From: a virus
Virus record (IMG/VR): IMGVR_UViG_3300023179_000525
Location: 1-23,485 of that record
Reading direction: 5' to 3' (one strand)
Length of the DNA: 23,485 nucleotides
Each line of letters starts with the position of its first letter. The first letter of the stretch is position 1. Shown here in pieces: positions 548 through 23,471 of this stretch. Under the pieces are notes generated by a model, which worked only from the letters and a program-made list of their open reading frames with translations, ran no database searches and was not told the DNA's origin. Both the position numbers and the translations under genes were made by a program.

Positions 548-1204
548 ATGCGTAGAGTTCTAATTGGAACACCCTCTTATGATGGTCGAGTTGATGTTTG
601 GTTTGCAAACAGTTTAATAGAAACTGTTAAAATGGCTGAAAAAAAGGGTATTTTTGTACACGCTATCTATACAAGTTATGACTCATTAGTTCAAAGAGCA
701 AGAAATAGCTTAATTAAACTAGCTATTGATGGAAAATATGATGATTTATTCTTTATTGATTCAGATACTGAATGGGAACCAAATTGGTTTTTTAATCTTT
801 TAGAACGACCTGAACCAATCGTTGGAGGTGCTTTAATTAAAAAGACAGAAAAAGAAGGTTATACAGTAAAATTAATAGATAAAGAACTTAAATATTCTAA
901 AGATAAAAAATTATTAGAGGTAGATGGTGTAGGAACAGGGTTTATGAAAGTCTCTAAGTTTGCTTTTGATAAACTATGGTTAGCAAGTGATCCTTATACA
1001 AGTGAAGGAGATGAACATAGAATGGTTTTTGATATTAAAGTAGAAAACGGAGACCTAATTTCCGAAGATTATGTGTTGTGTAACAAATGGAAATCTTTAG
1101 GATACAAAGTATGGTTAGATCCTACAATTACTTGTAATCATATTGGTATTAAGAAGTTTAAAGGTAACTTTAAAAAATTTATAGATAAAAATGGGTATGT
1201 TTAA
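548..1204 (+). CDS. GT-A fold glycosyltransferase (GT2-like)
   Basis: This probably transfers a sugar from a nucleotide-sugar donor to a glycan or protein in the infected cell. The N terminus has the GT-A entry strand (RVLIGTPSYDGRV). A metal-binding DxD motif, D71-S72-D73, sits in FFIDSDTEWEP, as in GT-A enzymes that place Mn or Mg on the donor diphosphate. A later ED pair (near SEDYVLCNKWKSLGY) resembles the catalytic-base region of GT2-type enzymes, followed by a WLDPTITCNHIG strand common to this group. At 218 residues it is a minimal single-domain transferase with no membrane segments. It follows the adhesin-like gene by 42 bases and precedes a sulfotransferase. Donor and acceptor cannot be read from the sequence. 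Confidence 0.85.
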   Translation: MRRVLIGTPSYDGRVDVWFANSLIETVKMAEKKGIFVHAIYTSYDSLVQRARNSLIKLAIDGKYDDLFFIDSDTEWEPNWFFNLLERPEPIVGGALIKKTEKEGYTVKLIDKELKYSKDKKLLEVDGVGTGFMKVSKFAFDKLWLASDPYTSEGDEHRMVFDIKVENGDLISEDYVLCNKWKSLGYKVWLDPTITCNHIGIKKFKGNFKKFIDKNGYV

Positions 1205-1216
1205 TAAGTTCTTACA

Positions 1217-1224
1217 TATTTATT
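1217..1224 (+). promoter_or_regulatory. Recurrent AT octamer (TATTTATT variant) before the sulfotransferase
   Basis: This is one of eight copies of a TATTTAT(A/C/T) element lying just ahead of start codons, here 32 bases before the ATG at 1257. It is a candidate late-promoter or leader element. This copy differs from the commonest form at its last base. Confidence 0.3.
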
Positions 1225-1256
1225 AACATAAAATAAGTTATTCTAAGTTAAAGTTT

Positions 1257-2078
1257 ATGATAAAAAAAGTGTTTTACAATAGTTCTATGCCTAGGGCAGG
1301 CTCTACTTTAATCCAAAACATTCTAGGACAAAATCCAGATCTTTATACTACACCAACTTCAGGTTTATTTGAGATGTTAGCTGCCTCAAGAACTATTTTT
1401 ACAGATAGTTTAGAGTTTAAAGCTCAAGAAGAATCTCAAATGATGACTGGTTTTAAGTCTTATTTAAAAGGTGGTCTTTATGGATTCTATGAAAATCTAA
1501 CAGACAAACCTTATGTTATTGACAAATGTAGAGGATGGAATTCAGAATGGGAATTTGTAAATGCTTTTGACCCAAATCCAAAAATGATTTGTATGATTAG
1601 GGATATTAGATCAGTTTATTCTTCATTAGAAAAGAAATTTAGAAAGAATCCATTACAAGATCATCACCTTGCTAACTGGGGTAATTTAACAGGTACTACT
1701 ACAGATAAAAGAATTAGTGTTTGGTCTGTTAATCCACCTATTGGACCTTCAATGGATAGGATTTATCAGGTATTAGTACAAGGTCTTCATAAAAACATTT
1801 TGTTTGTTAAGTTTGAAGAATTATGTGCTGACCCAGATACACAATTAAAACGTATTTATGAGTATTTAGAATTACCTTTTTACCAACATGATTTTAATAA
1901 TATCCAACAAGTAACTCATGAGGATGATAAGTGGTATGGTATTTTTGGAGACCATATTGTTAGAAAAGAACTAAAACCATTTAAAGAAGACTTTAGAGAG
2001 GTATTAGGACCAAATGCTTGTAAATTGATTGAGGAAAGTTATGCTTGGTTCTTTAATGATTTTGAATATAAAATTTAA
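1257..2078 (+). CDS. PAPS-dependent sulfotransferase
   Basis: It would transfer a sulfuryl group from PAPS to a hydroxyl or amine, most likely on a carbohydrate given its neighbours. The N-terminal MPRAGSTLIQNIL (residues 11-23) is the 5'-phosphosulfate-binding loop of the Sulfotransfer family. MIRDIRSVYSS (residues 113-123) matches the 3'-phosphate-binding element, with R115 and S123 at the expected spacing. FVKFEELCADP followed by a short helix and YLELPFY is the usual C-terminal part of cytosolic sulfotransferases. The length (273 residues) is normal for a soluble enzyme, and there is no signal peptide or membrane segment. It lies between two glycosyltransferases, 5 bases from the next gene, so the three are probably expressed together. 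The acceptor is unknown. Confidence 0.88.
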   Translation: MIKKVFYNSSMPRAGSTLIQNILGQNPDLYTTPTSGLFEMLAASRTIFTDSLEFKAQEESQMMTGFKSYLKGGLYGFYENLTDKPYVIDKCRGWNSEWEFVNAFDPNPKMICMIRDIRSVYSSLEKKFRKNPLQDHHLANWGNLTGTTTDKRISVWSVNPPIGPSMDRIYQVLVQGLHKNILFVKFEELCADPDTQLKRIYEYLELPFYQHDFNNIQQVTHEDDKWYGIFGDHIVRKELKPFKEDFREVLGPNACKLIEESYAWFFNDFEYKI

Positions 2079-2083
2079 CAAAA

Positions 2084-3079
2084 ATGAAAGTAGGTTTTAA
2101 AACACAAAGTGAAAATGAGTTTAAATCAATTACATTACCAGACACGCAAAGTCAACCAGTAATAATTTCAGTTGTACAAGGAAAAGATAATAATATGGAT
2201 AATAAGTTTTTAGTATGGCATATTGAAGGTGGATTAGGTAAAAACATAGCAGCAACTGCTCTTTTACCTGCTTTAGCTAAACAATACAAAACCAGAAAAA
2301 TAGTTGTAGTTGCTTCCTACCCGGAAGTATTTTTAAACCACCCTGAAGTTCATAGGGTTTATAGAGTAGGCATGACCGCTTATTTTTATGAAGATTTTAT
2401 TTTAGGTAAAGATACATTAGTATTCAGACATGAACCTTATTTTCAAACAGGTCATATCTTAAAACAAAAACACTTAATTGAAAACTGGGCTGAATTGTTA
2501 GGTCTAAGTTATAAAAAACAATTACCTAATTTGCACTTTAATATGGTACAAAAACAGTTATCAGGATTATGGCAAAGACAAAAACCAGTTTTATTAATAC
2601 AGACTAATGGAGGAATGTATCAAGGCCAACCATTAAACTATACTTGGACAAGAGATATGCCTATTGATCTTGCTTTATATATTGTTGATAAGTTTAAAAA
2701 TGACTATCATATTATTCAATTAACAAGACAAGGTAGTTATCAGTTAGAAGGAGTAGAAATAGCAGACCAACAAATGACTAATATGGAATTATTTGGGTTA
2801 GTTGCTGCCTCTGAAAAACGATTCTTAATTGATTCTTGTTTGCAACATACGGCAGCGGCTTTAAATCTTCCTTCAACAGTATTTTGGATTGGAACTTCAC
2901 CTGAAAATTTTGGATATGATATGCATACAAACATAAAAGCATTACCTCCTAAAGGAAATACTAAATTGATTGATGCATATTTATTTGATTATTCTTTTGA
3001 TGGTCCTCTACATGAATGTCCTTATGCTGATGTGAATGAAATGTTTGATGCAAGTAAATTAGAAGAACTTATAAAGTAA
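2084..3079 (+). CDS. GT-B glycosyltransferase, GT9 (heptosyltransferase)-like
   Basis: The protein has the layout of GT9 enzymes. An N-terminal Rossmann domain opens with HIEGGLGKNIAATALLPAL (about residues 46-64), matching the glycine-rich loop of heptosyltransferase-like proteins. A C-terminal domain contains LIDSCLQHTAAALNLPSTVFWIGTSPENFG, the family's donor-binding signature (an acidic residue, then H-x-AAAL and a P-T strand). The first 37 residues precede the fold. An in-frame ATG at 2195 (M38, before DNKFLVWHIEGG) would start exactly at the domain, so the true start is uncertain. The 5-base gap from the sulfotransferase suggests co-expression. The substrate is not determinable; by context it is a phage or cell-surface glycan. 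Confidence 0.72.
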   Translation: MKVGFKTQSENEFKSITLPDTQSQPVIISVVQGKDNNMDNKFLVWHIEGGLGKNIAATALLPALAKQYKTRKIVVVASYPEVFLNHPEVHRVYRVGMTAYFYEDFILGKDTLVFRHEPYFQTGHILKQKHLIENWAELLGLSYKKQLPNLHFNMVQKQLSGLWQRQKPVLLIQTNGGMYQGQPLNYTWTRDMPIDLALYIVDKFKNDYHIIQLTRQGSYQLEGVEIADQQMTNMELFGLVAASEKRFLIDSCLQHTAAALNLPSTVFWIGTSPENFGYDMHTNIKALPPKGNTKLIDAYLFDYSFDGPLHECPYADVNEMFDASKLEELIK

Positions 3080-3091
3080 TAAATTTTGCAA

Positions 3092-3099
3092 TATTTATA
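3092..3099 (+). promoter_or_regulatory. Recurrent TATTTATA element
   Basis: An exact TATTTATA lies inside AATATTTATAATAAAATAA, 13 bases before the ATG at 3113. It is the same element found before the tube, chaperone, tape-measure and small repeat genes, and is a candidate phage late promoter or leader signal. Confidence 0.4.
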
Positions 3100-3112
3100 A
3101 TAAAATAAAACT

Positions 3113-3490
3113 ATGTCACATAAATTAACTTCAAACAAATCAGTAATTTACAATGCTCAAACATTAGAATCTTCTTATTTAGTAATTACTTGCCCTCAAA
3201 CCACTTTCGTTGATCAAGGAAATAATGGTCCTTTCGGTGGTGGTTCAAACGAACATACTGTAAATATTAATGGTGCTATTTTTGCTAATTACAGTTCATC
3301 CGCTCAACAAAGAATTGATGGTGTAAATTATACTTTAACAGAAACCGAATGGGATACTTTTTACGCTTCTCAATCTTTTCAATCTCCAACAAGTTATGAT
3401 AGAGTTCAAGAAGCTTCATTATATTATATTCAAGATAATATTCCTGTAATGTTTGGTTTGTCTTCTTCAAACTGGATTTACTCTGAATAA
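3113..3490 (+). CDS. Hypothetical small virion-type protein
   Basis: I do not recognise this family. The 125-residue product is rich in Ser, Thr, Asn, Gln and aromatic residues, has few Lys/Arg and no membrane segment. A flexible Gly/Asn stretch (residues about 36-46, GNNGPFGGGSN) separates a short N-terminal strand-rich part from a C-terminal part. The single Cys is near the N terminus. This composition resembles small virion decoration or fibre proteins. It is preceded by the recurrent TATTTATA element that also precedes tail genes, which supports late expression. It is followed by a coiled-coil gene whose paralogue follows the fibre-like gene at 7935, so this protein may fill the corresponding structural role. 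That role is inference. Confidence 0.6.
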   Translation: MSHKLTSNKSVIYNAQTLESSYLVITCPQTTFVDQGNNGPFGGGSNEHTVNINGAIFANYSSSAQQRIDGVNYTLTETEWDTFYASQSFQSPTSYDRVQEASLYYIQDNIPVMFGLSSSNWIYSE

Positions 3491-3517
3491 TTAAATAAAA
3501 AACGTTATATAAAATAT

Positions 3518-3784
3518 ATGGAACCAATAAAATTAACTGAAGAAGAACTTAATAAGTTCGCAGAATTTAATCAAAAAAATAATGACCTTGTTTACAAACT
3601 TGGAAATTTAGACCTTACTAAAGTACAAATTGAAGAACGCCGTAAAGAATTACTTGCATTTTTTATTCAATTAAAAGAAGAGGATGCTGTTTTTTCTCAA
3701 GAATTAACTACAAAGTACGGTGATGGCAATATTAATTTTCAAACAGGAGAATTTATTCCTTTTGACAATTCTATTGAAGATTAA
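3518..3784 (+). CDS. Small coiled-coil protein with C-terminal KYGxGxIN motif (copy 1)
   Basis: An 88-residue, acidic protein. Residues about 5-65 look helical and coiled-coil forming (Glu/Lys/Leu/Ile heptad-like pattern), followed by a compact tail ELTTKYGDGNINFQTGEF. The same tail occurs in the product at 8747 (ELQAKYGNGTINLDKGEI), so the two genes are paralogues. Both follow a probable virion-surface gene by about 28 bases. Possible roles are a fibre-associated assembly helper or a small structural protein. No named family was recognised. The leader is A-rich without a Shine-Dalgarno sequence, as elsewhere in the window. Confidence 0.68.
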   Translation: MEPIKLTEEELNKFAEFNQKNNDLVYKLGNLDLTKVQIEERRKELLAFFIQLKEEDAVFSQELTTKYGDGNINFQTGEFIPFDNSIED

Positions 3785-3810
3785 TAATAAAATTTACTAA
3801 ATAATAGGTT

Positions 3811-5802
3811 ATGGAAAAACTACTATATGTAGCCCCCCATTTATCGACTGGGGGGTTGCCTCAATATTTAACTAAAAAAATAGAACTATTAAAAGATAGT
3901 TTTGAAATCTATTTAGTTGAATGGTCGGATTGTACTGGAGGTGTATTAGTAGTTACTAGAAATAAAATTGTAAAGCTTGTTGATAAAGACAAGTTTTTTA
4001 CTCTAGGGGAAAACAAACAAGAACTTATTGATATTATAAACCAGGTGAAACCAGATATTATCCATTTAGAGGAAATACCTGAGTTTTTTATGGATTTTGA
4101 TATTGCAAACCAAATTTATACTAAGGATAGAACATATAAGATTGTAGAAACATCTCACGATTCATCTTATGATATAACTCAAAAGAAATTTTATCCTGAC
4201 AAGTTTATGTTTGTGTCTCAATGGCAAATAAATCAGTATAAAGATATAGACATTCCTAAAGTATTAGTTGAATATCCTATAGAATATATTGAAAGACCGG
4301 ATAGAACAGAGGCATTACAAAAATTAGGATTAGATCCTAATAAAAAACATATTTTACATATTGGCTTATTTACTCCTCGTAAAAATCAAGCTGAGTTTTT
4401 TGCATATGCTAAAGCATTACCACAATATGAATTCCATTGTGTAGGTAATCAAGCAGACAATTTTAGACATTATTGGGAACCATTAATGAATGATAAGCCT
4501 GATAATTTAACTTGGTGGAATGAAAGAACAGATGTAGATGCTTTTTATCAAGCAATGGATTTATTCTTATTTACCTCCAGAGGTACAAACAATGATAAAG
4601 AAACAATGCCTTTAGTAATTAGGGAGGCCGTTTCAAATCAAATACCAATTTTAATTCATAATCTACCTGTATACTTAAATTATTGGGATGATTATGATGT
4701 TAATTATTTAGATACAACAGATTTTAGTTATAATCTAAGTTTAATTGAATCAAGTTTAAACTCTAACAATTATATAAATGTAGAGGAGGAAGCATTTGTA
4801 ATATCAACTTACCCAATATTAAATTCAGTAACAAAAACCACTATAGAATGTATTGAGGCTTTAAAACAAACAGGTAGAAAAATTATTTTAACATCACATT
4901 TACCTATTCCTAAAGAATTACAAGAGTTAGTTGATTACTGTGTTTATGATAAAAATAATTTATTAACGAAACATACATTTTACAATTATACTTGGTTTGA
5001 TTATGATACTTGGAAAGTTGGTTTATGGCTAACAGGAGAAAATAATAATGTTTATCATGGTCCTTCTGTTTACACAAATTACTATAATGGGGCTGCTTTA
5101 GCTGAAAAATTAGGTATTAAAAAAGTATATTTCTTAAATTATGATTATGTTTTAAAAGACTCAACTTTTATAGATAATGTATCTTTAATCTTAAACCAGA
5201 AAAAAGCATATGTTGGAATAAAAGAAGAACAAGAAGGAGAAACAGTTATAACTTATTTTCTAGCTACAGAACCTAAATTTTATTTAAACCATTTTCCCTT
5301 AGTTCAAACCTCTAAAGAATATGATGATTTGATGATTGAGTGGGAAAGTGAATCTAATGGTTTAGAAAATTTAACTTATTGTGCTCTTCAAAAATCAAAA
5401 AATCAAATATATTGGGAAAATCAAGAAACATTTAGTAGCTTAATTGAAAACAATTTTGAACATAAAAATTATTCAAGAGTAGAATATTTTTCTGTATTAC
5501 CAGTTAAAAACTACTCTACTCAATTTGCTGTATTTTTAAATGTATCTAATTCTACAGACAATAGAGATATTGAAATAGCTGTTTATGAGGATGATAAAAT
5601 GTTGTTTGATGAAACAGTAAAAGTAACTCATAAATTATCTTGGTTTAGACAAGTAACATTTGATCCTGAAAAAATATATAAAGTATACTATATGGCTTTT
5701 GATAGATATAATCAAGCATTAGTTGAAGAGAAAAAAATTATTATAGACAAAGAATATTTTGAAAACCAATTACCTAAAAATGGAGTTTTAACATTATCAT
5801 GA
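3811..5802 (+). CDS. Large multidomain glycosyltransferase (GT-B GT4-type plus second transferase-like domain and C-terminal beta domain)
   Basis: Residues about 1-320 form a GT4-type GT-B enzyme. The N-terminal LLYVAPHLSTGGLPQYL has the family's GG loop, HILHIGLFTPRKNQ opens the donor domain, and ETMPLVIRE gives the E-x7-E signature (E264/E272). Residues about 325-540 start a second domain (VISTYPILNSVTKTTIECI, then IILTSHLPIPKELQ) that resembles a GT-A-like or capsule-synthesis transferase half, but I see no clear DxD. The last ~100 residues look like a beta-sandwich and resemble the N-terminal domain of the TibC-like enzyme at 6727. At 663 residues it is a fusion compared with a typical ~350-residue GT4 protein. 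Its stop overlaps the next start (ATGA). Bases 3833-3855 near the start form an unusual GC hairpin. Confidence 0.82.
   Translation: MEKLLYVAPHLSTGGLPQYLTKKIELLKDSFEIYLVEWSDCTGGVLVVTRNKIVKLVDKDKFFTLGENKQELIDIINQVKPDIIHLEEIPEFFMDFDIANQIYTKDRTYKIVETSHDSSYDITQKKFYPDKFMFVSQWQINQYKDIDIPKVLVEYPIEYIERPDRTEALQKLGLDPNKKHILHIGLFTPRKNQAEFFAYAKALPQYEFHCVGNQADNFRHYWEPLMNDKPDNLTWWNERTDVDAFYQAMDLFLFTSRGTNNDKETMPLVIREAVSNQIPILIHNLPVYLNYWDDYDVNYLDTTDFSYNLSLIESSLNSNNYINVEEEAFVISTYPILNSVTKTTIECIEALKQTGRKIILTSHLPIPKELQELVDYCVYDKNNLLTKHTFYNYTWFDYDTWKVGLWLTGENNNVYHGPSVYTNYYNGAALAEKLGIKKVYFLNYDYVLKDSTFIDNVSLILNQKKAYVGIKEEQEGETVITYFLATEPKFYLNHFPLVQTSKEYDDLMIEWESESNGLENLTYCALQKSKNQIYWENQETFSSLIENNFEHKNYSRVEYFSVLPVKNYSTQFAVFLNVSNSTDNRDIEIAVYEDDKMLFDETVKVTHKLSWFRQVTFDPEKIYKVYYMAFDRYNQALVEEKKIIIDKEYFENQLPKNGVLTLS
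3833..3855 (+). promoter_or_regulatory. GC-only hairpin inside codons 8-15 of the large glycosyltransferase gene
   Basis: Seven perfect pairs (CCCCCCA with TGGGGGG) enclose a 9-base loop, starting 22 bases after the A of the start codon. The stem extends by a G-T wobble and an A-T pair. It uses GCC, CCC, GGG and GGG codons, which are rare in this AT-rich gene. It could control translation initiation or early elongation. The role is inferred; the structure is directly visible. Confidence 0.55.
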
Positions 5803-6746
5803 AAATTTGTCAAGTAAATCCAGGATGCGGAATACCAATTCCTCCACCTTCATGGGGTGCAATTGAAAAAATTGTATGGGAGCTTACATGTAATTTAAAA
5901 GAATTAGGCCATGAAGTTGATATAAAATGGGCCAATGAAATCCAACCAGGTGAATATGATTTAGTGATGGTACACGTGGCTAATTTAGCGTTAGAATTGG
6001 CGTCTAATAACGTATCGTATGTATTTCAACACCACGATCACCATGCTTATCATTATGGAAAGGACTCCACTATATATAAACAAAATAAAGAAGCAATGGA
6101 AAAATCTATTTTTTCTTTAGTGCCGGCTCGTTACTTAGTTGATTATTTTGATTTGCCTAATGTGCATTATTTTTCTCATGGAGTAAATATAGATACATTT
6201 AAACCAAATGATACAACCCCTATATATCATAGCTTACTAATGTTGGCAAATAATGGTTTAGGTGGTTATGGTTCATATGATAGGAAAGGATTTGAGTTAG
6301 GTGTTAAAGTAGCTATGTCTCGTAATCTACCTATTACAATAGCTGGACCTAAAAACAATGAAAATTGGTTTAATGATAATCCGTGGGTATTTGGTTATCC
6401 TAAATTAAGCATTTTAAATGAACCATCTAATAAACAATTAAGACAGCTTTATAATTCACATACTATATTTTTACATCCTAGTGACTTGGAGGCAGGTCAT
6501 CCTAATCTTACATTATTAGAGGCTGCAGCCTGTGGTTTACCTATTTTAGGATGTATTGAGGAAGAAACAATATTTCATGGTTTATGGAGAGCACCTCGTG
6601 ACTTAAACTTGTTACTCCAGGGACTAGATGTTATCATTGACGAATACAACCAATATAAACAAAACGCTTTAAATACATCTCAAGAATTATCTTGGTTAAA
6701 CCGTTCTAAAGACTTAATACAGTTATATGAAAGACTTACTAATTAA
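5799..6746 (+). CDS. GT4-family glycosyltransferase
   Basis: A 315-residue GT-B enzyme. The N terminus, MKICQVNPGCGIPIPPPSWGA followed by IEKIVWEL, is the acceptor-domain start of GT4 proteins that open with a PP-x-x-GGIE-like loop. The middle has HGVNIDTFKP, a very common GT4 linker between the two Rossmann domains. The donor domain has HPSDLEAGHPNLTLLEAAA followed by CGLPILG, the family's retaining-transferase signature, although the usual E-x7-E spacing is shifted (E-x9-E). There is no signal peptide or membrane helix. Its ATG overlaps the upstream stop (ATGA), and its own end overlaps the next gene by 20 bases, so translation of the three transferases is probably coupled. Donor sugar and acceptor are unknown. 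Confidence 0.86.
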   Translation: MKICQVNPGCGIPIPPPSWGAIEKIVWELTCNLKELGHEVDIKWANEIQPGEYDLVMVHVANLALELASNNVSYVFQHHDHHAYHYGKDSTIYKQNKEAMEKSIFSLVPARYLVDYFDLPNVHYFSHGVNIDTFKPNDTTPIYHSLLMLANNGLGGYGSYDRKGFELGVKVAMSRNLPITIAGPKNNENWFNDNPWVFGYPKLSILNEPSNKQLRQLYNSHTIFLHPSDLEAGHPNLTLLEAAACGLPILGCIEEETIFHGLWRAPRDLNLLLQGLDVIIDEYNQYKQNALNTSQELSWLNRSKDLIQLYERLTN

Positions 6747-7932
6747 AGAATATAAAAATACCAAAATCTTAAATCTAAAAAGTAAACAACCTTCAAATAC
6801 TTTTAATGTTAATTTTGTTGATGGTGCTTCTTTAGAAGTAGTAGGACCTTTAGAAGAAGAATATAAAGTTACTTTTACAAATACAAAAACTAACGAAGTA
6901 GTTCATGATAGTGTTATTAATAATAATATGTGGACTCGTACTAGTATAAAATACTGTGTTGACTGGAAAATAGAAGTATTTAACAATAAAACAGGAGAAA
7001 AAGTACACGAACATATCTTTAACCCTAAAAACAAAAGAGTTTATATTCATTTAGATTCAGGAGCAGTTGGTGATACTTTAGCTTGGTTTCCTTATGCTGA
7101 AGAATTTAGACAAAAATGGGATTGTGAGGTAATTTGTTCTACATTCCATAATGAATGGTTTAAAAAGGAATACCCACAAATTGAGTTTGTAAAACCAGGA
7201 ACTGAGGTAAACAATTTATATGCTATGTTTAATGTAGGGTGGTTTTATGATGGGGAAGAAATTGTAAAGGATAAAATACCTTTTGATTTTAAAAAACATC
7301 CCCTACAACAAACACCCCCAGAAATTTTAGGACTAGAATATAAAGAAGTAAAACCAAAACTTACTATATCTCGTAAAAAAACAAATATAGAAGGTAAATA
7401 TGTAGTAATTGCTCCTCATGCCTCCTCTCACGCCAAATACTGGATGCATCCTAAAGGATGGCAAACTGTTATTGATTACTTAAATGAAAAAGGTTATAAA
7501 GTAGTTATGATAACAGGTGAACCTTTAGGAGATGAATGGCATGACTCAAAACTAGGAGGTACATTGACCGGTGTAATAAATAAAACAGGTTATAATATTG
7601 ATTTATCTGATAGAATGATTGATATTAGAGATGCTGAATTATTTATAGGAGTAGGCAGTGGATTAAGTTGGTTAAGCTGGTCAATAGGTACTCCAACTAT
7701 CCTAATTTCAGGATTTAGTTACCCTTATACTGAATTTAAAGATTGTGAACGTATTTTTACTTTAGATTCTAAAGCATGTACTGGATGTTTTAATCGCCAT
7801 TGGTTAAATCCTGGTGATTGGGAATGGTGTCCTGACCATAAAGATACTCCAAGACAATTTGAATGTACAAAAACTATAAAACCTGTTCAAGTAACTGGCG
7901 CAATTGATAAAATGTTGAATATTTATCAATAA
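6727..7932 (+). CDS. Autotransporter O-heptosyltransferase-like protein (TibC/Aah family)
   Basis: This resembles the bacterial autotransporter heptosyltransferases, which put heptose on Ser residues of beta-helical adhesins. The architecture is complete. An N-terminal beta domain (about residues 25-100) is followed by a GT9-like GT-B body starting at VYIHLDSGAVGDTLAWFPYA. The donor-site block is ELFIGVGSGLSWLSWSIGTP, then ILISGFSYPYTEF. The C-terminal Cys cluster is C351-x2-C354-x13-C368-x11-C380, with WCPDH and FECTK contexts, as in the iron-binding finger of TibC. At 401 residues it matches the family's usual length of about 400. It starts within the upstream GT4 gene and stops 2 bases before a Ser/Thr-rich fibre-like gene, its most obvious candidate substrate. 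That it uses heptose, rather than another sugar, is not shown. Confidence 0.85.
   Translation: MKDLLIKEYKNTKILNLKSKQPSNTFNVNFVDGASLEVVGPLEEEYKVTFTNTKTNEVVHDSVINNNMWTRTSIKYCVDWKIEVFNNKTGEKVHEHIFNPKNKRVYIHLDSGAVGDTLAWFPYAEEFRQKWDCEVICSTFHNEWFKKEYPQIEFVKPGTEVNNLYAMFNVGWFYDGEEIVKDKIPFDFKKHPLQQTPPEILGLEYKEVKPKLTISRKKTNIEGKYVVIAPHASSHAKYWMHPKGWQTVIDYLNEKGYKVVMITGEPLGDEWHDSKLGGTLTGVINKTGYNIDLSDRMIDIRDAELFIGVGSGLSWLSWSIGTPTILISGFSYPYTEFKDCERIFTLDSKACTGCFNRHWLNPGDWEWCPDHKDTPRQFECTKTIKPVQVTGAIDKMLNIYQ
7920..7927 (+). promoter_or_regulatory. Recurrent AT octamer (TATTTATC variant) before the fibre-like gene
   Basis: TATTTATC overlaps the last codons of the TibC-like gene and ends 7 bases before the ATG at 7935. 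It could give the fibre-like gene its own late transcription. The overlap with coding sequence makes this the weakest copy. Confidence 0.25.
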
Positions 7933-21341: not shown

Positions 21342-21671
21342 ATGAAAAAAGCAGACAATTTTGACTCTAGTAAGTGGTTAACAGAAAATAAAATCACTAC
21401 ACAATCTCGTTTAAATGAAGATGAAGATTCAGACACTAAAAATAACATTATAGTAGGATATAGATGGAAATCTAATCAAATGAGAAGAGATAATGTTGAA
21501 GAAGCATTAGCTATAATTGGATTTGGAAAAAATCAAGATAGACTTTATAATTCTATGCCTATAGAAGGAAAAATGGTAGCATTTTATGATTCATCAGACC
21601 CAAATTCCGCTTGTGAAAGACTCAGAAAAGCAGGAAAATTAGATGAATGGTTTGAACCTGTTTATAAATAA
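21342..21671 (+). CDS. Small protein with possible capsid-targeting N terminus
   Basis: A 109-residue protein. The first 26 residues (FDSSKWLTENKITTQSRLNE after MKKADN) form an amphipathic helix-like segment ending in L-N-E, followed by a very acidic stretch (DEDSDTKNN). T4-like phages place N-terminal targeting peptides ending in an L/I-x-E site, cut by the prohead protease, on proteins packed into the capsid; this pattern would fit. The remainder (IIVGYRWKSNQMRRDNVEEA through DEWFEPVYK) is a compact alpha/beta domain with no recognised motif. The gene is the last before a terminator. The targeting reading is speculative. The upstream 49 bases hold only an AT-rich TATATATA stretch. Confidence 0.6.
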   Translation: MKKADNFDSSKWLTENKITTQSRLNEDEDSDTKNNIIVGYRWKSNQMRRDNVEEALAIIGFGKNQDRLYNSMPIEGKMVAFYDSSDPNSACERLRKAGKLDEWFEPVYK

Positions 21672-21696: not shown

Positions 21697-21722
21697 AGGC
21701 TTGGTTTATCTAAGCCTTTTTT
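21697..21722 (+). terminator. Rho-independent terminator ending the structural region
   Basis: AGGCTT pairs with AAGCCT (six pairs plus a G-T wobble), with a loop of about seven bases and then TTTTTT. An A-rich stretch lies upstream. An alternative pairing (CTTAG with CTAAG) exists. It separates the tail-type genes from the polymerase gene, where base composition changes. Confidence 0.72.
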
Positions 21723-21748: not shown

Positions 21749-23038
21749 ATGTTTTGGATAATAGAGACAGAAGAGGCAATGGAGTATCTTACTCACAAAA
21801 CGATAGCGGAAGCATTCATAGAGATAATTCCACTACACGATAACATACATCCTGCTTTAAACAACGTGTCTTTAGTGTATATAAGACCGTTTAATGACAC
21901 AAAGGGTTATATGTTATGCGTTGACCATAGCGAGACGTCCTCGCTTAATAAGACAACTATAGACGCATTACTACAAAAAATAAATAAGGTATGGGTGCGT
22001 GATAAGAAGGCAGCATTATATTATTTTCCTATCAAAAGCTTGTGCGACCTATCAATCCTAAACCCTACGTATATACCCTCGGAAACACAAGCACATACAT
22101 ACTTTTATTCTCACCATACGGATTATTTAAAGGTTAATAAATTAATTCCTCTAAGCAAGCACTACCAAAAATGCGAACATATTTATCAGCAAGCTCGTAA
22201 TGTAATACCAAAGGAATTACCACCGTATTTTGATTTTTATAACAATAAGGTAGTATTAGCATTTTTTGGGATAGAAAAAAACGGATTAAATATAAACAAA
22301 TATGAATTTGATAAACACTATGAACTTAACAACGAATCTTATTCAATCGATAACGATAGAATCTACACCAGTTACAATTTGGCTACAACAACACGTAGAC
22401 CAAGTAACTCTTTTAATGGCGTTAATTTCGCAGCAATAAACAAAGAAAATGGCTCAAGGAGAAGCTTCATATCGAGTCATGGGTTTATGGAGCTCGATAT
22501 TAGTGCATATCATCCTCATCTCGCTAGTCGTATGGTTGCCTTTGATTTTGGCACTACAGATGTCCACCAAACCTTCGCGGACCTCTATGGTACGAGCTAC
22601 AAAGAGGCAAAAGAACTTACGTTTAAACAGCTATATGGAGGCGTATTTAAAGAGTATGAGCACCTTGAATTTTTTCAACAAATAAAGAAATTTATTGACA
22701 ATAACTGGGAGGCGTTCAATAACTCCGGTCAAGTTATCGTACCAATTTCGGGTTATTGCTTTAAAAAGAGCGAGCTGGAGAATATGAATCCGCAAAAACT
22801 GTTTAACTATATGTTACAGAACGTGGAATCAGCAATGAATGTTTGTATATTGATGGATATACATAAGCTATTACGAGGGCGCAAAACAAAAATTGTATTA
22901 TATACGTACGATTCGTTTTTGTTTGAGCTAGGTGAGGGTGAGGAAAATATAGAAAACGAGATAAAACAAATATTTAATAAATACAGGTTACAGACAAAAA
23001 CAAGTTATGGAAAAACATACGATTTTACAGAGGAATGA
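21749..23038 (+). CDS. Compact family A DNA polymerase with degenerate exonuclease region
   Basis: The C-terminal half carries the family A polymerase motifs in order. TTTRRPSNSF (near residue 211) matches the T-x-G-R-x-S region. LDISAYHPHLASR is motif A, with catalytic D250. AKELTFKQLYGG is the O-helix motif B, with K288, F292 and Y296 at the K-x3-F-x3-Y spacing. YTYDSFLFE is motif C, with catalytic D388. The N-terminal ~130 residues (IETEEAMEYL, then FIEIIPLHDNIHPALNNVSL) look like a 3'-5' exonuclease fold without an intact D-x-E. At 429 residues the protein is shorter than a Klenow fragment (about 600); the stretch between IEKNGLNIN and the T-x-R motif is only about 40 residues. This probably makes it the phage replicative polymerase. 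Confidence 0.82.
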   Translation: MFWIIETEEAMEYLTHKTIAEAFIEIIPLHDNIHPALNNVSLVYIRPFNDTKGYMLCVDHSETSSLNKTTIDALLQKINKVWVRDKKAALYYFPIKSLCDLSILNPTYIPSETQAHTYFYSHHTDYLKVNKLIPLSKHYQKCEHIYQQARNVIPKELPPYFDFYNNKVVLAFFGIEKNGLNINKYEFDKHYELNNESYSIDNDRIYTSYNLATTTRRPSNSFNGVNFAAINKENGSRRSFISSHGFMELDISAYHPHLASRMVAFDFGTTDVHQTFADLYGTSYKEAKELTFKQLYGGVFKEYEHLEFFQQIKKFIDNNWEAFNNSGQVIVPISGYCFKKSELENMNPQKLFNYMLQNVESAMNVCILMDIHKLLRGRKTKIVLYTYDSFLFELGEGEENIENEIKQIFNKYRLQTKTSYGKTYDFTEE

Positions 23039-23042
23039 CTAT

Positions 23043-23471
23043 ATGTATGACGGATACGATTTTGATTCGACAAACATAAAAGACGTGAACAATAAGTTAT
23101 TTTGTACATTTACAGGAATAGAGGATTTAGATACACTAATCAGTGATTTGACTAAGGCCTATACTATCATGTATAATAAGATGTTTGTGCTTTATGTAAA
23201 AAGCACAGACGAGTACGTTGTTACATACAACGTGGAGCAGGGCAATGTTGAGGGTATTCCAATGAATACGATCCTAGTACATAGAAAGAAAGAAACCAAC
23301 ACATTATATACTATTAATGCGTTGAATGATTTAATAAAAAAATTAAATGGTGGAGTGGTTGACCCATCTTACCGTGTAAATTGGCAACACTATAAAAACT
23401 GTATTTTGTTAACCAACCATAACGAGTTGAAACAATTGAATACAAAAGTTCACAAGATTGTTGAACTTTAA
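23043..23471 (+). CDS. Unrecognised protein downstream of the polymerase
   Basis: A 142-residue soluble protein with mixed helix and strand, Asn/Asp/Lys-rich and without obvious catalytic motifs. Segments include LDTLISDLTKAYTIMYNKMF and INALNDLIKKLNGGVVDPSY. I chose the ATG at 23043, which lies 4 bases after the polymerase stop and 8 bases after an AGAGGA sequence. An in-frame ATG at 23007 would add 12 residues and overlap the polymerase by 32 bases. Its composition matches the polymerase gene rather than the tail genes, and the tight spacing suggests it belongs to the replication operon. No function is proposed. Confidence 0.65.
   Translation: MYDGYDFDSTNIKDVNNKLFCTFTGIEDLDTLISDLTKAYTIMYNKMFVLYVKSTDEYVVTYNVEQGNVEGIPMNTILVHRKKETNTLYTINALNDLIKKLNGGVVDPSYRVNWQHYKNCILLTNHNELKQLNTKVHKIVEL

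Follow-up and report, generated by a model that had tools for sequence, protein, structure and literature searches.

A divergent family A DNA polymerase, divPolA1, was described in 2024 from 14 phages with genomes of 155-190 kb (PMC11348598; preprint, PMC11188092). According to the accessible part of that report, these enzymes have a truncated thumb and an exonuclease domain inactivated by replacement of all three catalytic aspartates, retain the palm residues, are followed by replication genes downstream, and occur alongside a regular polymerase of family A, B or C. From this operon its authors inferred that divPolA1 is involved in replication, and they regarded what the regular polymerase does as less obvious; the accessible text takes up neither a partner protein nor the steric-gate residue nor a primase role for divPolA1, and the word "steric" does not occur in it. 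Our literature search returned no biochemistry for any divPolA1 member.

The window analysed here is the whole 23,485-nucleotide stretch of IMG/VR virus record IMGVR_UViG_3300023179_000525. At 21749..23038 (+ strand) it carries an open reading frame, with the position and frame length claimed in an earlier note on this DNA, for a compact family A DNA polymerase of 429 amino acids from a T4-like aquatic phage, which by profile and fold comparison almost certainly belongs to the divPolA1 family described in PMC11348598 (accessible part). The enzyme of immuto, a named divPolA1 member, matches it at 36.7% identity in an alignment that covers 91% of the window protein (E 3e-79), and the divPolA1 traits are present: a palm with D250, K288 and D388, a short thumb, and an exonuclease-like domain lacking the catalytic acids. 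A first IMG/VR scan returned 82 stretches encoding relatives, and further scans returned at least 573 with the A1 query, 312 with the immuto protein and 109 with that of Mel-JY01, sets that may overlap; the LR756508 query found no relatives in IMG/VR. Six of 50,697 named phage records were matched, comprising four immuto records, Microcystis phage Mel-JY01 and one 484-kb uncultured phage, together with nine stretches in bacterial and archaeal assemblies, several of them in Flavobacteriia metagenome bins, that could be phage contigs. The relatives fall into three clades, members of the other clades being 24-36% identical to the window protein. In three relatives (L026, L170 and L240) the polymerase frame is broken, by sequencing error or genuine breakage. 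New here are the hundreds of additional relatives in three clades, an invariant histidine at the steric gate, a near-invariant tyrosine in place of R754, and a linked partner gene.

Placement within the wider family A superfamily rests on profile comparison and the predicted fold. The window sequence by itself had no Pfam match, falling short of the cut-off of PF00476 (DNA_pol_A), which 19 of 81 relatives matched at E <= 0.01 (best 7e-13); in PHROG it weakly matched DNA polymerase I (E 0.037), and among PDB sequences it gave weak matches only. A profile of 21 relatives reached Klenow at E 1.2e-4 (hmmsearch) and hhalign with 81 relatives did so at E 1.4e-5, pairing D250, K288 and D388 with D705, K758 and D882 of E. 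coli Pol I, though hhalign in global mode misaligned the N-terminal domain. Since the 81-row profile found no match among PDB sequences although the 21-row profile had one, the link by sequence is a weak one, and it is the fold on which the argument depends. Structure prediction and comparison, which the earlier note had proposed, returned the fold of the Klenow fragment. The AlphaFold2 model, built with 81 aligned relatives (pLDDT 92.9, pTM 0.91), had as its best Foldseek match in the PDB E. coli Pol I (8oo6, E 6.2e-17), with Pol I-type enzymes of M. smegmatis and the Plasmodium apicoplast also among the top matches, and VIA-align superposed it on Bst Pol I with a Z of 26.5 (rmsd 3.7, 392 residues aligned), covering model residues 1-426, or 1-428 with other Bst chains.

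Motifs A, B and C are all found, and in order, in the profile alignment, as had been claimed from the sequence, and the spacing of the two catalytic aspartates also stands: D250 and D388 lie 138 residues apart, against 177 for D705 and D882 counted on the fetched E. coli K-12 polA sequence, a shortening of 39 residues, and the spacing is 138, 144 and 137 in the three clades. Motif A (D250-I-S-A-Y-H255; 22496..22513, +) places a histidine at the steric-gate position, D250 and H255 occupying the hhalign columns of D705 and E710. Motif B, on the O helix (Y284-KEA-K288-ELT-F292-KQL-Y296-G; 22598..22639, +), is supported by hhalign and the residue tallies, and Y284 would fall on R754 when the alignment is carried ungapped from K288. 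Motif C (Y387-D388-S389; 22907..22915, +), assigned from tallies and alignment, replaces the HDE of E. coli Pol I and T7 gp5. Across 225 distinct full-length proteins R217, D250, H255, K288, F292 and Y296 are invariant, Y284 is present in 224, Q357, Y387 and D388 are each present in 224 with one gap, and residue 389 is split between Ala (124 proteins) and Ser (100); conservation of the motif residues to this degree means that the motif match is not due to chance. The same tallies show that E. coli E710, R754, H881 and E883 are represented by His, Tyr, Tyr and Ser/Ala throughout the family.

In Klenow, E710 excludes ribonucleotides and R754 touches the incoming triphosphate, and T7 RNA polymerase has HDS as its motif C. 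The invariant H255 and the Ser/Ala at position 389 could therefore be read as permitting NTPs, making this a primase or another ribonucleotide-using enzyme that lays down primers or transcripts. We regard this as very unlikely, since 223 and 224 of the 225 proteins retain N353 and Q357, residues characteristic of DNA polymerases, the top structure matches are DNA polymerases, a DnaG-type primase is encoded in immuto outside the operon and matched in G001 and G002, and a histidine may exclude the 2'-OH as well as a glutamate does. The alteration of E710, R754 and E883, all important in Klenow, might also suggest a catalytically dead polymerase retained as a scaffold or regulator; this seems scarcely credible for a family in which virtually every one of the 225 proteins retains the metal-binding aspartate pair, K288 and Y296, across clades only 24-36% identical to the window protein.

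Upstream of the palm, residues about 1-134 (21749..22150, +) appear to be a remnant 3'-5' exonuclease-like domain, as the structural alignment of the model to Bst Pol I begins at residue 1 and so puts this part of the protein in the place of the exonuclease domain. We infer the positions of motifs I-III, motifs I and III by hand alignment. With this mapping and the tallies the acidic triad is gone: intact D-x-E, N-x-x-x-D and Y-x-x-x-D motifs were not found in the window polymerase, motif I near residues 26-28 is non-acidic, and none of the residues listed for the motif II position (89), together accounting for 220 of the 225 proteins, is Asp. E6-x-E8 was considered as a surviving D-x-E and dropped, as position 8 varies (E 45, Q 30, D 12, K 11 and L 3 among 106 distinct proteins of the window clade) and the N-terminus of Klenow fits residues 21-31 better by hand alignment. 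The earlier note was thus right that no intact D-x-E is present, and its suggestion of reduced proofreading agrees both with the loss of the acidic positions in this partly manual alignment and with the published account of divPolA1 (PMC11348598, accessible part). A conserved alternative exonuclease site was looked for and not found as an acidic triad. The description of the region as decayed holds for the triad only, because H34, Y44, H60, K86 and K87 are invariant over an 81-row alignment, which points to a domain that is still constrained and not to simple decay.

The largest change, which the earlier note overlooked along with the His for the steric-gate Glu, the Tyr for R754 and the YDS/YDA in place of HDE at motif C, is the near-complete loss of the thumb. 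A thumb is usually considered one of the standard components of a DNA polymerase. Its expected site is residues 176-217 (22274..22399, +), which we take to be the thumb from the known domain limits, and there E176 and R217, equivalent to E540 and R668 of E. coli, are separated by 41 residues, against 128 in E. coli/Klenow; the same landmarks span 201 residues in T7 gp5 and 217 in the regular PolA of immuto. The median span among distinct full-length proteins, taken clade by clade for the three clades, is 41, 41 and 23 residues, and thumb helices are absent from the AlphaFold2 model at 176-217, so that the polymerase is, judged by this span and the predicted structure, almost thumbless. The earlier description of the region before motif A as very short also holds, at 249 residues compared with 381 in Klenow (324-704).

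A regular DNA polymerase is encoded as well in 17 of 18 large related records, of family B in 10 and full-length family A in seven (matches of about 190 bits), and one 114-kb fragment had neither. Of 27 further window-like fragments (28-164 kb), 13 have a family B polymerase and in 14 none was found, PF00476 exceeding its cut-off in none of the 27. A family B polymerase is present in G018, which has a compact polymerase 89% identical to that of the window; in G016 and G017, the nearest relatives, which are fragments of 49 and 73 kb, family B was not found. The family B enzyme of G002 carries the PF03104 exonuclease domain and the regular PolA of immuto carries PF01612, which indicates that in these relatives the compact enzyme works beside a polymerase of the proofreading type, and the phage from which the window, a 23,485-base fragment, derives probably encodes a regular polymerase as well. 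The alternative suggested earlier, dependence of the compact enzyme on a separate downstream exonuclease, is borne out only loosely, in that the 3'-5' exonuclease domains found sit in the second, regular polymerase; no stand-alone proofreading exonuclease was found in the five records searched, where PF00929 had no match and the one PF01612 match was the immuto regular PolA itself. The "exonuclease" of immuto gene 180 was rejected as a proofreader, being a PD-(D/E)XK nuclease (E 2e-4, just under the Pfam cut-off). In at least two frames, as if split or interrupted, are the regular family B polymerases at G041 27629-29100, G014 53555-55532 and LR756508 260623-266900, and in immuto (L338, 18-40 kb) the regular PolA adjoins GroEL/GroES, near a 7-deazaguanine DNA modification set of QueD/E/F, FolE and DpdA.

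This second polymerase bears directly on the earlier proposal that the window enzyme is a minimal replicase with reduced proofreading, copying the phage genome itself. In its favour are the position of divPolA1 at the head of a replication operon, the location of the immuto regular polymerase elsewhere, by the chaperonin and modification genes, and the replication role inferred by the divPolA1 authors in the accessible part of PMC11348598. Loss of the thumb, however, speaks against processive copying of 150-kb genomes unless a partner substitutes for it, and a regular polymerase is present in 17 of the 18 large records, with an exonuclease domain in both of the two checked. We therefore reject a minimal replicase as the main reading because of the second polymerase, and consider it distinctly improbable.

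In immuto, L066, G001 and G002 the genes follow the order polymerase, partner, small genes in some, a gp32-like SSB, RecA, a 5'-3' exonuclease and DnaB, according to the operon order of immuto, tblastn matches in G001 and G002, and identified domains for the gp32-like protein and the 5'-3' exonuclease. The window ends 14 bases past the partner gene; it is in these four records that replication genes were seen downstream. A terminator-like hairpin followed by a T run (21697..21717, +), one of three such sites in the region against a mean of 1.3 in shuffles, separates the tail and baseplate genes from the polymerase, which may thus head its own transcription unit. Elsewhere in the window, the tail sheath and tube genes are preceded by several glycosyltransferase-like genes (548-7932), the first with a weak Pfam Glycos_transf_2 match. 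Small proteins of unequal length in the window (21342-21671), G001 (159257) and G002 (143213) share a near-identical N-terminus, KADNFDxSKWLxENKITTQSRLNE, with a looser version in immuto gene 3 (L080 1803-2318); a pattern search gave one occurrence in each of two genomes, and from the sequences the stretch could be a targeting signal or a leader that is cleaved off.

The partner gene (23007..23471, +) encodes 154 amino acids and overlaps the 3' end of the polymerase gene, and its assignment as a partner derives from its linkage to the polymerase in relatives. Of 287 polymerase loci, 253 had it close by (128/132, 69/75 and 56/80 by clade), a count in which some loci have no downstream DNA and the ORF caller required ATG. 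A search with the partner only, considering the best 80 of 593 loci, found the polymerase in all 74 new loci (71 within 50 bases, three at 739-813), where ranking by likeness to the window leans the sample to the window clade and some loci repeat earlier contigs. Polymerase and partner are carried by the same six of the 50,697 named phage records. The partner had no PDB sequence match, no credible Pfam match and no clear fold match; its model (pLDDT 80.9) gave a best Foldseek E of 0.032 and a best Z of 6.7 (rmsd 1.9, 62 residues aligned, residues 27-91), which may reflect only a common arrangement. Some loci have 680-860 extra bases between polymerase and partner (L246 from 7458 onward, and three partner-search loci), and the 208-aa ORF in the L246 insert presumably resembles an HNH homing endonuclease.

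By these computations divPolA1 keeps its palm and fingers site and has a non-catalytic exonuclease remnant and almost no thumb. It heads a T4-like phage replication operon, in the order polymerase, partner, gp32-like SSB, RecA/UvsX, 5'-3' exonuclease and DnaB helicase, and is kept whichever regular polymerase the genome has (family A or B in the records analysed here, and family C as well in the accessible part of PMC11348598). We favour, with modest confidence, a reading in which it performs short-patch synthesis beside the regular polymerase with the aid of the partner. Without a thumb the enzyme would probably grip DNA poorly alone, and such poor holding would imply short, non-proofread synthesis together with the 154-aa partner. 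This synthesis could be either Okazaki-gap filling or recombination-primed; the likeliest use would be gap filling once the separate Pol I-type 5'-3' exonuclease, four to five genes downstream, has removed RNA primers, so that the two proteins might in effect be a Pol I divided between genes. Several points count against this explanation: an active DNA polymerase would not usually have Tyr for R754, His for E710 and Ser/Ala for E883, a family B polymerase was not found in 14 of the 27 further fragments, the gap-filling role is suggested by gene neighbours only, with recombination genes among them, and the authors of PMC11348598, in its accessible part, infer a replication role.

Those recombination genes also invite the reading that divPolA1 is a recombination or lesion-bypass polymerase, extending RecA-made D-loops or bypassing damage, which is possible but on balance unlikely. 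RecA and gp32-like genes follow the polymerase at a distance of two to four genes in immuto, L066, G001 and G002, and loss of exonuclease and thumb suits enzymes of low fidelity and low processivity, but the operon also has a helicase and a 5'-3' exonuclease, so that the neighbours do not single out recombination. Pol theta and Pol nu carry insertions, and the compact protein leaves no space for any like them. Returning to short-patch synthesis with the partner, a more speculative and rather doubtful extension is that divPolA1 and the 154-aa protein form a two-subunit polymerase, in which the partner replaces the thumb or acts as a clamp, co-inherited in no fewer than three phage clades even as the regular polymerase of the same genomes swaps families, and in which the histidine gate may tolerate ribonucleotides.

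The interest of this locus lies in its linked partner gene and the missing thumb. The existence of the family is already published, and it is the partner gene and the altered gate and O-helix residues that are a source of new experiments. A large natural family with a family A active site and neither thumb nor proofreading, almost always next to a single small partner gene, offers a test case for thumb replacement, and its genomes, mostly with a normal polymerase too, offer a case for why some phages keep two polymerases.

In comparison with known systems, the window polymerase resembles the Pol I large fragments of E. coli and Bst (Klenow and BF) in the order and fold of its exonuclease-like domain, palm and fingers. 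It differs from them in its almost absent thumb, the changes of E710 to His, R754 to Tyr and HDE to YDS, a motif A-C distance shorter by 39 residues and a smaller exonuclease-like domain, and from Pol I in having no fused 5' nuclease. A dead exonuclease domain is also found in Bst and Taq polymerases. T7 gp5 and the immuto regular PolA (MW353176 gene 71) share its family A motif order, but have long thumb regions (201 and 217 residues) and an intact D-x-E, both of which the window polymerase lacks. The divPolA2 of barbaviruses, as described in the accessible part of PMC11348598, is likewise a second PolA without an exonuclease domain or canonical thumb, beside a regular family B polymerase, but is set apart from divPolA1 in that description by an unrelated N-terminal domain and variable gene neighbours. 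The closest system is divPolA1 of the immuto-like phages, the same family, from which no tested feature sets the window polymerase apart, and which grows from the 14 phages given in the accessible part of PMC11348598 to the hundreds of IMG/VR stretches found here.
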